This document shows, one piece after another, positions 42,175 to 48,054 of a stretch of 64,000 nt of DNA (the stretch's first letter is position 1; each line of letters begins with the position of its first letter). The DNA comes from Aureispira sp. CCB-QB1 (GTDB taxonomy: Bacteria > Bacteroidota > Bacteroidia > Chitinophagales > Saprospiraceae): NCBI RefSeq assembly GCF_000724545.1, contig NZ_JHBV01000015.1, positions 1 through 64,000 of the forward strand, given 5' to 3'. Under the pieces are notes generated by a model. That model had not been told where the DNA came from. It saw only the letters and a program-made list of their open reading frames with translations, and ran no database searches. Made by a program: the position numbers and the translations under genes.

Positions 42175-44793
42175 ATGAAAGTTTTTTTTACAACTTGTGT
42201 GCTATTTTTTGTAGCATGCTCGTTTACAAGAGCCCAAACCGTTTTGCTAGAAACATTCAATGGCACTTCGACCCCAAGTGGATGGACCAACACAGCTACA
42301 GCAGGACCAGGCTGGCTATTCAGCACGAATGCTGGATATGACGTCTCTAGTATCACCGACCATACTAATAATGGTGGTAATTATGCATGGATTGATTTTT
42401 CAGGAACAGATGCAGGAGTCGTTTTACAAAGTCCTGTTATTGATGTTTCTACCTTAACAACCCCTTATTTACAGTTTTATTACGAAAGCCATTATTCTGG
42501 CTCCTTGAGTCCCTTCAATTTTGTCTATCTAGAAGCATGGAACGGCTCGTCTTGGGTACTTGTCAATACTTTTCAAGGCAACACTCCTTTTGGTTGGGAC
42601 GAATATGGCTTTAATATGTCTAGTTTTACATTTAATGGTGGCAATGATCTTCAGTTTCGTTTTCGGGGCGAATCTGGTGGAGCTAGCAATGACTTTAACA
42701 ACGACCTCTTGTTAGATGATGTAGAGGTAATGGAATTGCCAACGTGCCCTAAACCAAGTAACTTAGCTGTCAACAACATTACGGCTACTAGTGCCGATTT
42801 TTCATGGGTTGAAAATGGTACAGCAACTGACTGGCAAGTAGAATTTGGTCCTCAAGGATTTACCCAAGGAACTACGGCAGGGACAGTAGTTTTTACTTCT
42901 ACCAACCCATACAATCAGACTGGCTTATCTCCTAGTACAACATTTGATTTGTATGTACGCTCTATTTGTGCTCCTGGTGATACTAGTCGATGGGTGGGTC
43001 CTATTAATTTCACAACGCTTTGTGCTACAGCTGTTGCTCCATGGTCTGAAAGTTTTACAGGCAACAGCACTCCAAACTGCTGGAACGAATCAGGTTCAGA
43101 GCCGTGGCGTTATTCAACAAGCGCAGGATATGCTGCCGCAAATGCAGGAGATCATACTGGAAATGGCGGTAACTATGCGTGGATTGATGGTTCTTCTCCC
43201 AGTGGTCCTAACCAAATTAGTACTTTGGAGAGCCCTCCAATTGATGTGAGTGGTCTTACTGTTCCACTACTTTCTTATTGGGTATTTTCTCACAATCCTA
43301 CTGATAACTCTTATAACACCTTAACAGTTGAAGTATACGATGGTGCTGCTTGGAATATCGTAAGTACCATTAACTCAGATCAAGGAAATGGATGGAATCA
43401 CATTATCGCTGGTTTACAAAACTTAACCATAACAGGTCCTATCCAAATTCGTTTTACGATTGCTGAAAATTCGCCAGGAACAGCTTTCTATAACGACATT
43501 CTAATCGATGACATAGAAGTTAAAGAGGCCCCTAATGTATCAGCAGATACCCTATTGGGCGTTCAATCCCTTTATTGTAATGCTGCGGTTAATGTAACAT
43601 TGGTTGTTTCCAATAAATCAGGTAATCCAGAAACTGATGTGCCGTGGACAGTCGAGTCTAATGGAACAGTGATTGCTAATGGTGTTATTCCTGTATTGGC
43701 ACCCAATGGATCTGATTCTATTCCTTTATCTTTGGGAGGAGTTGGTCCAGCAGGACCTAATGCGATGATTACAGCCTACACCCATTTTGCTCCCGATCAG
43801 ACAAGTTCTGATGACACTCTAATTGTAACAACTGGAATGTCCTATACTGGTGTTAATGCAACTATGACAAGTCCTGTAGGTTGTGCTGGCGCTTCCAATG
43901 GTGAAATTGAAGCTGTAGGAAATAATGGAATTGGAGCTTACACCTATCAGTGGGATGCTTCTGCGGGTAGCCAAACAACAGCTACTGCAACAGGTTTATC
44001 AGCAGGAATGTATACACTAACCGTAACCGACTCCATAGGTTGCTCTACAGTAGCATCACTAACGTTAGTTGACCCTCCTGCTATGACTCTAACTAGTTCT
44101 GGAACAGATTTAAATTGTAATGGTGATAACAGTGGAGCTGCTGTTGCAACTCCTAACGGAGGAGTCCCTGGCTATACTTATATGTGGAGCAATGGAGCAA
44201 TGACCAATCAATTGGCAAATGTTGCTGCTGGAACATACACCGTTAGTGTTACTGATGCTAATGGATGCGAATTAACAAGCACCGTTACCTTAAATGAACC
44301 TGCAACAGCCATACTTGCTTCTGTCACTGATAATGGAAATGGAACTGCTCTAGCCAATGCAACTGGAGGAGTCGCTCCATATAGCTATCAATGGGATGCT
44401 TCTACTGGTAATCAAACGACTGCAATGGCGACAGGTTTAACACCTGGAAATGTTTATTATGTAGTTGTGACAGATGCTAATGGATGTTCTGATGTTGTTT
44501 CTTTCAAAGCGATAGCTCTAGATGTTACGACCATTGATGATGATGCTAATTTGAGTATGTATCCAAATCCAACGAGTGGAAATATCTTTGTTGATTTAAA
44601 TTTAAATGAACAAATGGATGTGCAAATTCAAATTGCAACGGTAACAGGTCAAGTTTTAATGACTCATCAGTTTAATCAAACGCAAAACAGTAAATTTGAA
44701 TTAGAAACTGCTCAGTTGCCTACAGGAGTTTATATGGTTACCTTTAGTATAGGTTCTGATCAGTTAACAAAAAAATTAATTGTTACTAAGTAA
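42175..44793 (+). CDS. Large T9SS adhesin, related to the 36708 protein
   Basis: 872 residues. Signal peptide to about 21 (SFTRAQ). MAM/jelly-roll-like domain (about 22-190; YESHYSGSLSPFNFVYLEAW), FN3 (191-285; ATSADFSWVENGTATDWQVEFGP), second MAM-like (286-455), CARDB-like (455-560), three SprB-type repeats (565-780; LNCNGDNSGAAVATPNGG) and a type A sorting domain (793-872; LSMYPNPTSGNIFVDLN). Module order is a shortened version of the gene upstream, and several motifs match it, so the two are paralogs. Likely a surface adhesin. Confidence 0.93.
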   Translation: MKVFFTTCVLFFVACSFTRAQTVLLETFNGTSTPSGWTNTATAGPGWLFSTNAGYDVSSITDHTNNGGNYAWIDFSGTDAGVVLQSPVIDVSTLTTPYLQFYYESHYSGSLSPFNFVYLEAWNGSSWVLVNTFQGNTPFGWDEYGFNMSSFTFNGGNDLQFRFRGESGGASNDFNNDLLLDDVEVMELPTCPKPSNLAVNNITATSADFSWVENGTATDWQVEFGPQGFTQGTTAGTVVFTSTNPYNQTGLSPSTTFDLYVRSICAPGDTSRWVGPINFTTLCATAVAPWSESFTGNSTPNCWNESGSEPWRYSTSAGYAAANAGDHTGNGGNYAWIDGSSPSGPNQISTLESPPIDVSGLTVPLLSYWVFSHNPTDNSYNTLTVEVYDGAAWNIVSTINSDQGNGWNHIIAGLQNLTITGPIQIRFTIAENSPGTAFYNDILIDDIEVKEAPNVSADTLLGVQSLYCNAAVNVTLVVSNKSGNPETDVPWTVESNGTVIANGVIPVLAPNGSDSIPLSLGGVGPAGPNAMITAYTHFAPDQTSSDDTLIVTTGMSYTGVNATMTSPVGCAGASNGEIEAVGNNGIGAYTYQWDASAGSQTTATATGLSAGMYTLTVTDSIGCSTVASLTLVDPPAMTLTSSGTDLNCNGDNSGAAVATPNGGVPGYTYMWSNGAMTNQLANVAAGTYTVSVTDANGCELTSTVTLNEPATAILASVTDNGNGTALANATGGVAPYSYQWDASTGNQTTAMATGLTPGNVYYVVVTDANGCSDVVSFKAIALDVTTIDDDANLSMYPNPTSGNIFVDLNLNEQMDVQIQIATVTGQVLMTHQFNQTQNSKFELETAQLPTGVYMVTFSIGSDQLTKKLIVTK

Positions 44794-44960: not shown

Positions 44961-44981
44961 TGATGTCATGCCCCGAAAAAA

Positions 44982-45017
44982 AAGGAGTCAATAACAATAA
45001 ATTGCTATTGACTCCTT
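44982..45017 (-). terminator. Terminator of SRP RNA copy 1
   Basis: AAGGAGTCAATAGCAA and TTGTTATTGACTCCTT (minus strand) form a 16-bp stem with one G-U pair and loop TTTA, followed by TTTTTTTT. A second T run directly follows the RNA helix itself. Confidence 0.92.
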
Positions 45018-45028
45018 CATAAAAAAAA

Positions 45029-45122
45029 GAGCAGAAACACACCAGCTGCTACAACCACCTACCCTTGCTTGCGTTAACACCTGGGGGATTTAATGGGAGC
45101 TTGCCATGCATCTCCAACTCTG
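45029..45122 (-). ncRNA. ffs: Signal recognition particle 4.5S RNA, copy 1
   Basis: About 94 nt. The apical SRP signature reads CAGGU GU(UAAC)GC AAGCA: the universally conserved AGGU and AAGCA sides of the symmetric loop, spaced exactly as in E. coli 4.5S RNA, closed by a UAAC tetraloop of the URRC class accepted in SRP RNAs. CCCCC upstream pairs with the following GGG. The 5' GAGUUGGAGAUGCA and 3' UGUGUUUCUGCUC ends pair over 13 positions with one bulged U. The RNA binds Ffh (SRP54) for co-translational targeting. A perfect promoter and terminator flank it. Confidence 0.9.
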
Positions 45123-45126
45123 GTTG

Positions 45127-45157
45127 CAAATATAGAATGCTTTTTGGGTTTCACAAA
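45127..45157 (-). promoter_or_regulatory. Promoter of SRP RNA copy 1
   Basis: TTTG (45157-45154), 19-bp spacer, TATATTTG (45134-45127) followed by C: a full match to the Bacteroidota consensus, with the RNA starting about 5 nt later. The 260 bp to the second copy hold nothing else recognised. Confidence 0.88.
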
Positions 45158-45401
45158 CTTTTTAATGAAATAAATTAAACTTTTTTTAGCTTAGTTTTAA
45201 TTAATCATTAATAATCAAGCAAAAAGGTTGTATTAAAATTCCCTCTCAATAATTTTCGTTACTTACGACTGTCTTTTATGATCAAGAAGTACATTAAGTC
45301 ATCGTCCAAAATTTCTTGTGCTTCCACTAAAAACTATTTTTATGATACGATTCCTTTAGATCGTTTTATTAAAAATAACCAATTTACAATTACCAAAAAA
45401 A

Positions 45402-45437
45402 AAGGAGTCAATAACAATAAATTGCTATTGACTCCTT
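45402..45437 (-). terminator. Terminator of SRP RNA copy 2
   Basis: Same hairpin as copy 1 (16-bp stem, loop TTTA, long T run on the minus strand). Confidence 0.92.
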
Positions 45438-45446
45438 CATAAAAAA

Positions 45447-45540
45447 GAGCAGAGATACACCAGCTGCTACAACCACCTACCCTTGCTTGCGTTAACACCT
45501 GGGGGATTTAATGGGAGCTTGCCATGTACCTCCAACTCCG
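45447..45540 (-). ncRNA. ffs: Signal recognition particle 4.5S RNA, copy 2
   Basis: About 94 nt, 418 bp upstream of copy 1 in the same orientation. The apical core is identical to copy 1. The terminal helix differs at four positions, two on each side: GAGAUGCA/UGUGUUUC in copy 1 becomes GAGGUACA/UGUAUCUC in copy 2. Every change keeps pairing (G-U to G-C, A-U to G-U, U-G to U-A, G-U to A-U). This shows both copies are kept as folded RNA. Own promoter and terminator are present. Confidence 0.9.
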
Positions 45541-45543
45541 GTG

Positions 45544-45574
45544 CAAATATAAAACGCTTTTTTAGTTTTCACAA
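45544..45574 (-). promoter_or_regulatory. Promoter of SRP RNA copy 2
   Basis: TTG (45574-45572), 20-bp spacer, TATATTTG (45551-45544) followed by C. Confidence 0.82.
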
Positions 45575-45666: not shown

Positions 45667-46425
45667 CTAAAAGGTAGCTCCAACCCTTAATGTTAGAGCA
45701 AATAATGTCGTCCGCTCTCCTCCAAAACCAGTTGTTCTACCCATTTGTATTAAATAACCTAGATCTAATGTTGTATGTCCTTTTCGAGTGGAAGGAAAAC
45801 GAACTCCAATTGCAGGATGAAGATGTAACCCTCCACTTGTACTCCCATTTCCATTTATTCCAGATAATGAATTTAAAGATAATCCATAGCCAATATTCAT
45901 GTCGTAATAAGGACTCACCGATTTTTCCATCAAATAGCCTCTAAAATTAGCGCAGATCGGTACCGTGCCATCTGCTCCTGCTGCTAAGAACCCAATATGA
46001 AGTCCTACTCCAAACAGTTTATGAAACTTGTACCCGACGGAATATTCTAATTTAAACCCTAATAAATTAAACACACTAAAAAAACCTGGTCCTGTAAAAG
46101 GTGCTGGAATCACATTGCTCCCTGCAAAAGAATGATACCATCCCCTACTTTGGGGCACGTGCAATGTTCTAGGTTTTTCAACAGGTTGAACTTCATTGGT
46201 GCTTTTTTCTTTTTCTATTTTTAAAATCGTTGAGCTTGGATACACTAGTATACTTCCTCCTCTTACCTGTATTTTAATCTCACTTTTAGGAGTATATTCC
46301 AAAATTTGACCTCGAAGTATTGAGCCATCTTTAAAGTAAACGACATCTTCTGTAGTAGTTTGCCCTAAAACAGCGCCAAAACTTAGGCAGATTAGTAACA
46401 AACTAATAAAAATTTTATCTTTCAT
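45667..46425 (-). CDS. Envelope protein, paralog 3 of a tandem triplet
   Basis: 252 residues. Signal peptide (LSFGAVLGQ). Residues 24-75 form a small beta domain: EDVVYFKDGSILRGQILEYTPKSEIKIQVRGGSILVYPSSTILKIEK, an SH3/LSm-like strand pattern. The rest (about 90-252) is rich in aromatic beta strands (YSVGYKFHKLFGVGLHIGFLAAG, HPAIGVRFPSTRKGHTTLDLGYLIQMGRT) and ends LRVGATF. That pattern fits a small outer-membrane beta-barrel with a final aromatic. It is the last gene of a three-gene operon, 52 bp from the previous one. Confidence 0.82.
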   Translation of the reverse strand: MKDKIFISLLLICLSFGAVLGQTTTEDVVYFKDGSILRGQILEYTPKSEIKIQVRGGSILVYPSSTILKIEKEKSTNEVQPVEKPRTLHVPQSRGWYHSFAGSNVIPAPFTGPGFFSVFNLLGFKLEYSVGYKFHKLFGVGLHIGFLAAGADGTVPICANFRGYLMEKSVSPYYDMNIGYGLSLNSLSGINGNGSTSGGLHLHPAIGVRFPSTRKGHTTLDLGYLIQMGRTTGFGGERTTLFALTLRVGATF

Positions 46426-46477
46426 GTATTGTATTATTTGTGTTTTACCTGAGAATCATTACTGGAGTTTTGGAGGC

Positions 46478-47203
46478 TTAAAAAGTAACACCTACCTTAG
46501 TTGTAATCGCGTAGACACTGTACTCATGGACTCCACCCATTTGTATCATATAGCCTAAGCTTAACGTAGCATGCCCTTTTCTGGTAGAAGCAAACCGTAC
46601 TCCTATTGATGGATGCACATGCAGCCCACCTTTTCTAGTCCCTACAGTAGTCAATCCATTCAAACTAACACCATAGCCTACATTCATATTATAAAATACA
46701 TTAGTAGAAGTTTTTAGGAAATAGCCTCTTAAATTAACACAAATGGGGGCAAAAGCTTCAAAACTAGGAACAAGCAACCCAACACTAGTCCCAACACCAA
46801 AATAGCGATTAAATTGATGCCCCCATGTATAATCTACCATCGCCCCAAAAGGCAAATTCCAAATACCAACACTACCTCTAGCATACACCTTAAAAGTCGT
46901 CCCGAATGCAATGGAGTGATACCAACCTGTTTCTTTTAAATGCAAAGGACGTTCGCTATTATCTGTCTGATACGCTCTTTTGAGCTTCGTTTTTTCAATT
47001 TTAGTAACTTCTGAGCTCTTGTAAACAATTAGGCTTCCCCCTTTTATTTTTATCTTAATTTTGTCTTTGGGATCATAATGGACGATTTCACCTTGTATAA
47101 TTGTTCCATCTTTTAAATGAACAACATCTTCTCTAATTTCCTGCCCTATTACAGTTGATGTTAAAAACATCAATGCTATAACTATATATATTCTATAAAT
47201 CAT
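46478..47203 (-). CDS. Envelope protein, paralog 2 of a tandem triplet
   Basis: 241 residues. Same layout: signal peptide ending VIGQ, a strand domain (EDVVHLKDGTIIQGEIVHYDPKDKIKIKIKGGSLIVYKSS), then a barrel-like half (VDYTWGHQFNRYFGVGTSVGLLVP; HPSIGVRFASTRKGHATLSLGYMIQMGG; terminal TKVGVTF). Closest to paralog 3. Middle gene of the operon (68 bp to paralog 1). Confidence 0.82.
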   Translation of the reverse strand: MIYRIYIVIALMFLTSTVIGQEIREDVVHLKDGTIIQGEIVHYDPKDKIKIKIKGGSLIVYKSSEVTKIEKTKLKRAYQTDNSERPLHLKETGWYHSIAFGTTFKVYARGSVGIWNLPFGAMVDYTWGHQFNRYFGVGTSVGLLVPSFEAFAPICVNLRGYFLKTSTNVFYNMNVGYGVSLNGLTTVGTRKGGLHVHPSIGVRFASTRKGHATLSLGYMIQMGGVHEYSVYAITTKVGVTF

Positions 47204-47271
47204 TCATCTTATTTTTATGGTCTGAATAATAGTAGCTTGCTGCGAGCTTAATGATGTTTTAATAAAACAAC

Positions 47272-48054
47272 TTAGAATGTAACACCAACACGAAGAGAAG
47301 GTCTATAGATGGTTCTTTTCTCAAAAATTGAATTATTATTCCAATCGCGATATTGAGCACTTGAGAATTGTATCACATATCCGAAATCTAAAAATACGTG
47401 CGTTTGTCTAGTAGAAGGTAAACGAACTCCAATAGAAGGTCTGAGATATAAGCCCCCTTCTGCAGCTTCCATTCTCCCCAAGCCATTTGAAGCCAAAGGA
47501 TTAACAACACCAATTCCATATCCGACATTAATATCGTAAAATAAACTAGCCGTAGACTTCATAAAATTTCCTCGAATATTGGCAAAAACAGGGACAAAAG
47601 TTGGACCTCCTAAATTCATCATTCCAACACCTCCACCGACACCAAGCAACCGATGAAAATACCACCCAACAGCTCCTTTCAAGCTAATCCCAGGAGTCGG
47701 TTCTCCCCAATCACTTAATCCTCCTAGTGTTCCTACTGCTACGGTTCCATAAATCCCTGTATTGGGCACTTTATGATTAGGTCGTTTCTTTTTCTTTACT
47801 TCTAATACAATTTTTGCCGTCTCTTTTTCTATCTTGACTACTTCTGAGCTCTTGTAGACCAAGACACTTCCTCCATAAATTTCAATCTTGATATTACCAT
47901 TAGGGTCGTATTCTATTACTTGACCTCTTATGACACTCCCATTTTCCATGTAAACAACATCTTCTTTTGCCTCTTGTGCCCAAGTATTGACAGTTGTCAA
48001 ACATACTAAAACAACAACACTTAATAAAGAGCAGATTAACTTTTTGTAGTTCAT
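47272..48054 (-). CDS. Envelope protein, paralog 1 of a tandem triplet
   Basis: 260 residues. Signal peptide ending NTWAQ; strand domain (EDVVYMENGSVIRGQVIEYDPNGNIKIEIYGGSVLVYKSSEVVKIEKE); barrel-like half (GAVGWYFHRLLGVGGGVGMM; RPSIGVRLPSTRQTHVFLDFGYVIQFSS; terminal LRVGVTF). First gene of the operon; a terminator-like hairpin lies 24 nt upstream of its start. Family and ligand unknown. Confidence 0.82.
   Translation of the reverse strand: MNYKKLICSLLSVVVLVCLTTVNTWAQEAKEDVVYMENGSVIRGQVIEYDPNGNIKIEIYGGSVLVYKSSEVVKIEKETAKIVLEVKKKKRPNHKVPNTGIYGTVAVGTLGGLSDWGEPTPGISLKGAVGWYFHRLLGVGGGVGMMNLGGPTFVPVFANIRGNFMKSTASLFYDINVGYGIGVVNPLASNGLGRMEAAEGGLYLRPSIGVRLPSTRQTHVFLDFGYVIQFSSAQYRDWNNNSIFEKRTIYRPSLRVGVTF

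Follow-up and report, generated by a model that had tools for sequence, protein, structure and literature searches.

Escherichia coli possesses one ffs gene, and the RNA of this type (Rfam family RF00169), which directs newly synthesised proteins to the membrane, is a single hairpin without an Alu domain, carrying an apical tetraloop and internal loops that bind Ffh. The related Bacteroidales small SRP family (RF04183) likewise forms a hairpin, with a conserved CCCAGG...AAGCAAGG core. In SRP RNA, Ffh is bound by the apical core and FtsY is received at the tetraloop (PMC5454536, PMC5115805), while the distal region of the E. coli RNA houses the activated Ffh-FtsY complex (PMC5454536). A housekeeping RNA retained in two copies is known from Bacillus, whose duplicated 6S RNAs are dispersed and differentially expressed (PMC4342826). 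In the open-access literature searched, with subscription papers outside the scope, no report of a duplicated bacterial SRP RNA was found.

Here we describe two 4.5S-type SRP RNA genes arranged in tandem on the minus strand of a 64,000-nucleotide stretch of the Aureispira sp. CCB-QB1 genome (contig NZ_JHBV01000015.1, positions 1 to 64,000; hereafter the window). Both RNAs match RF04183 over its full length and differ from that family in a diverged terminal helix, a UAAC instead of a GNRA tetraloop, and the presence of two genes instead of one. In contrast to the Bacillus 6S RNAs, the Aureispira pair is tandem.

Two SRP RNA genes in tandem

Positions 45574-44981 of the minus strand comprise two successive units, each consisting of a promoter, an RNA of approximately 92-94 nt and a terminator (Table 1). 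The place and strand that a sequence-only reading had given for two RNA genes agree with the RF04183 matches, and its proposal of separate promoters is supported by promoter-like boxes found for both copies, each of which also has a terminator hairpin. The terminators fold with -22.7 kcal/mol (z about -8.4 to -8.5); weak matches to the plastid psbA 3'UTR coincided with these hairpins and were treated as chance hits. The promoter box TATATTTG precedes every readable SRP RNA promoter in the two-copy genomes of Aureispira and of a second genus described below; the upstream promoter of genome G122 falls in an assembly gap and was left out of this check.

Table 1. Features of the tandem SRP RNA locus in the window. 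RNA limits are approximate; those of the upstream copy were taken from its terminal helix GAG...CUC.
Feature	Position	Strand	Evidence or remark
Promoter of upstream copy, TTG...TATATTTG, Bacteroidota type	45544..45574	-	pattern scan
Upstream copy (U), 4.5S-type SRP RNA, UAAC tetraloop	45447..45538	-	RF04183 53.9 bits (E 7e-10); R1 63.3 bits
Terminal helix type of U, GAGGUACA/UGUAUCUC	45447..45538	-	
Intrinsic terminator of upstream copy	45401..45438	-	17-pair stem, then T run
Promoter of downstream copy, TTG...TATATTTG	45127..45156	-	pattern scan; homologous regions at the downstream copies of G126 and G122
Downstream copy (D), 4.5S-type SRP RNA, UAAC tetraloop	45029..45120	-	RF04183 50.2 bits (E 6e-9); R1 63.3 bits
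Terminal helix type of D, GAGAUGCA/UGUGUUUC	45029..45120	-	
Intrinsic terminator of downstream copy	44981..45018	-	stem-loop identical to that of upstream copy

An Rfam scan at the gathering threshold reported nothing. The RF04183 matches span positions 1-107 of the 107-position model (45545-45443 and 45127-45025) and lie 1-5 bits below the gathering score of 55.2 bits, a cut-off which the orthologue in the Aureispira genome G120 passes with 55.6 bits. The scan with RF00169 proposed in the sequence-only reading succeeded in part: a search of the whole genome matched one copy at 24.2 bits, below the cut-off of 40 bits, and missed the other. RF00169 is a poor model for this clade. To avoid circularity, we built a covariance model (R1) from 23 SRP RNAs of other Saprospiraceae genera; it matched U and D over their full length with equal scores and, together with RF04183, corroborated the earlier assignment as SRP RNA. 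The genome-wide search for further copies, also proposed there, revealed exactly two in total. The UAAC loop of both copies is of the URRC type, an alternative to GNRA in small bacterial SRP RNA that did not appear in the papers searched. The consensus fold of 13 Aureispira RNAs is one hairpin comprising a helix, internal loops and an apical tetraloop, and the partner protein Ffh is encoded in the genome of the window (one PF02978 match at G000:C29). Among 112 Saprospiraceae genomes with a match, 82 pass the RF04183 gathering score and about one quarter are missed. The tandem pair also shows that RF00169 and the RF04183 cut-off overlook real SRP RNAs in Saprospiraceae.

Copy number in Aureispira and its relatives

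The tandem pair was found in five of nine Aureispira genomes, corresponding to four of eight species: the genome of the window (G000), a two-contig genome of the same species (G121), the three-contig genome G120, G126 and G122. The other four genomes, each of a different species, have a single copy. The copies are spaced by 418-419 bases in G000, G121 and G120, by 478 bases in G126 and by approximately 1.2 kb in G122. As the window derives from a 184-contig draft, an assembly artefact was considered as the origin of the second copy. This explanation is refuted by the near-closed genomes carrying the pair (G121 and G120) and has practically no probability left: G121, assembled in two contigs, likewise has exactly two copies, set 418 bases apart, and sequence differences separate the two copies as well as their flanks.

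Two copies were detected in 10 of 284 Saprospiraceae genomes, Aureispira and the second genus included, and exactly one in 262 of the 272 genomes with a match. A survey of the class gave two copies in 2 of 246 genomes and exactly one in 240 of 242 with a match; the two-copy counts of both surveys are lower bounds because strict filters can lose weak copies. One copy is therefore the norm, as the sequence-only reading had assumed, and the departure from it is real but modest. Two matches were also seen in the draft genomes G459 and G536 (family) and G290 (class), which may reflect real duplication or contamination. Extra weak matches in G125 and G021 (E 1.2 and 4.3) were absent with the better model R1, and a partial match at the edge of contig C482 of G122, resembling the end of a copy, was left uncounted. 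No related plasmid locus was found. Conserved duplication of this housekeeping RNA is real, unusual for SRP RNA and, as far as known, ordinary in mechanism.

Structural conservation of both copies

The apical cores of U and D are identical, and their terminal helices differ at four positions (G-C to G-U, G-U to A-U, U-A to U-G and A-U to G-U). These had been described as compensatory base changes. All four do keep pairing, but none is compensatory because each alters one base only, exchanging Watson-Crick and wobble pairs. As approximately 67-69% of random transitions in the terminal helix preserve pairing, four of four are expected by chance with a probability near 0.2, and the retention of pairing in the window pair taken alone is weak evidence. 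The folding energies of single RNAs gave no support either, their MFE z-scores being unremarkable. The pairing-preserving pattern is significant only across species: in 13 distinct Aureispira RNAs, each with 33 pairs, all 429 of 429 cells are standard pairs and none is broken, a result matched by 0 of 500 shuffles and by no slid version of the alignment. Double-sided changes occur at 7 of the 33 pairs.

Each copy keeps the full structure in every two-copy species, so neither resembles a pseudogene. The description of both copies as apparently functional appears justified in so far as structural conservation across species can indicate function. That one of them is a decaying duplicate heading for loss, as a single copy in half of the Aureispira species might suggest, is highly improbable, since no copy of any species has a broken pair, the R1 scores are equal, both promoters and terminators are intact and four species have the pair in common.

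History of the tandem pair

In G000, G126 and G122, the copies cluster by position, helix type included. A derived helix type is common to the upstream copies of G000, G121, G126 and G122, while the downstream copies of G000, G126 and G122 have a common type nearer to that of single-copy species. Both copies of G120 are alike and downstream-like. Terminator likeness reaches 98-100% inside each of G000, G120 and G126 and amounts to 71-96% between these species. Among the promoters, likeness is 93% between the upstream regions of G000 and G126 and 85% between the two regions within G000. This opposite pattern suggests that gene conversion has acted on the transcribed part where the two copies lie close together; in G122, with more widely spaced copies, the terminators are 90% alike. 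A single clade for all upstream copies was rejected by a tree test (p 0.012), which is compatible with later gene conversion or with two duplications. Instead of gene conversion, a duplication of its own may account for the two like copies of G120. The tree of one flanking protein had too low a resolution to date the duplication. Three of four single-copy Aureispira species have a GAAA tetraloop, and most relatives have GAAA or GGAA. Two tetraloop classes were observed in one genome, G126 (L050 6421-7001), with UAAC upstream and GGAA downstream.

The pair of G120, G126 and G122 sits among the same flanking genes as in G000. Genes next to the pair encode an LVIVD/beta-propeller protein, a protein of approximately 260 aa and an SprB-repeat/T9SS protein and are common to most genomes with enough compared sequence. 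Just upstream of the SRP RNAs, the window encodes three tandem paralogous proteins of 252, 241 and 260 aa (45667-48054, minus strand), for which Pfam gave no match. Two such paralogues are present in G120 and one each in G122, G123, G124 and G126; this varying number suggests that the flank is likewise prone to tandem duplication. Downstream of the pair, a converging gene (42175-44793, plus strand) combines SprB repeats with MAM, fibronectin and T9SS C-terminal sorting domains, and its product is likely a secreted surface protein. The two SRP RNA copies of G122 are separated by a 229-aa reading frame (L051 503-1192, minus strand).

A second genus with its own pair

Four near-closed genomes of a second Saprospiraceae genus (G057, G393, G394 and G396) carry two SRP RNA copies, a and b, approximately 2.5 Mb apart. 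Both are orthologous across the four genomes. As in Aureispira, near-identical cores are combined with copy-specific terminal helices, and this arrangement is conserved across species. In contrast to the Aureispira pair, the copies are dispersed, their terminators are not homogenised, and the helices of a and b differ by three true compensatory pairs (G-C/A-U, G-C/C-G and A-U/G-C). In the RNA tree, the Aureispira RNAs form one group (support 100/100) and those of the second genus another (89/84), so the duplications of the two genera look independent.

Retention of two SRP RNA genes

One Ffh M-domain gene was found per Aureispira genome examined, with the exception of G124, for which none was found; both RNAs would hence feed one protein. 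We consider it probable that the two elements are functional ffs genes which arose by tandem duplication within Aureispira, were partly gene-converted and are kept mainly for dosage or expression control. Each gene would form a transcription unit bounded by a promoter and a terminator of its own. Both RNAs fold into the usual single hairpin, in which the core for Ffh binding is conserved, and would be bound by the single Ffh of the cell. The downstream copy would have retained an ancestral-like terminal helix, that of the upstream copy being derived, and gene conversion may have partly homogenised core and terminators, whereas the terminal helix would be free to vary provided that pairing holds. 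The pair would most likely be retained for SRP RNA dosage or for two separately regulated promoters. Against two working genes stand the RF04183 scores below the gathering score and the four Aureispira species which manage with one copy.

Alternatively, the two RNAs might be specialised, either by condition-dependent expression or by terminal helices that tune targeting differently. Three Aureispira species maintain copy-specific helix types, and so, separately, do four genomes of the second genus; the promoters are copy-specific, and the copies of G126 differ in their tetraloops. The terminal helix is close to the distal site at which the Ffh-FtsY GTPases dock, and in E. coli the distal region hosts the complex (PMC5454536); the differential expression of the duplicated 6S RNAs of Bacillus provides a precedent (PMC4342826). 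However, the core is identical in the genome of the window, the differing pairs merely exchange Watson-Crick and wobble pairing, and one Ffh only is available. The terminal helix varies among single-copy species too, so drift explains the helix difference. Specialisation is therefore a rather unlikely explanation, and somewhat more doubtful still is the proposal that two Saprospiraceae lineages independently evolved paired SRP RNAs, with a common core and copy-specific helices maintained across species, which form two functionally distinct SRP particles with one Ffh. Dosage or dual promoter control accompanied by helix drift is the simplest reading.

Because SRP RNA is nearly always single-copy, a conserved pair offers a natural test of whether its dosage limits membrane targeting or whether one Ffh can serve two SRP particles. 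Good natural comparisons are provided by G126, where UAAC and GGAA loops occur in one cell, and by the second genus with its compensatory helix changes.
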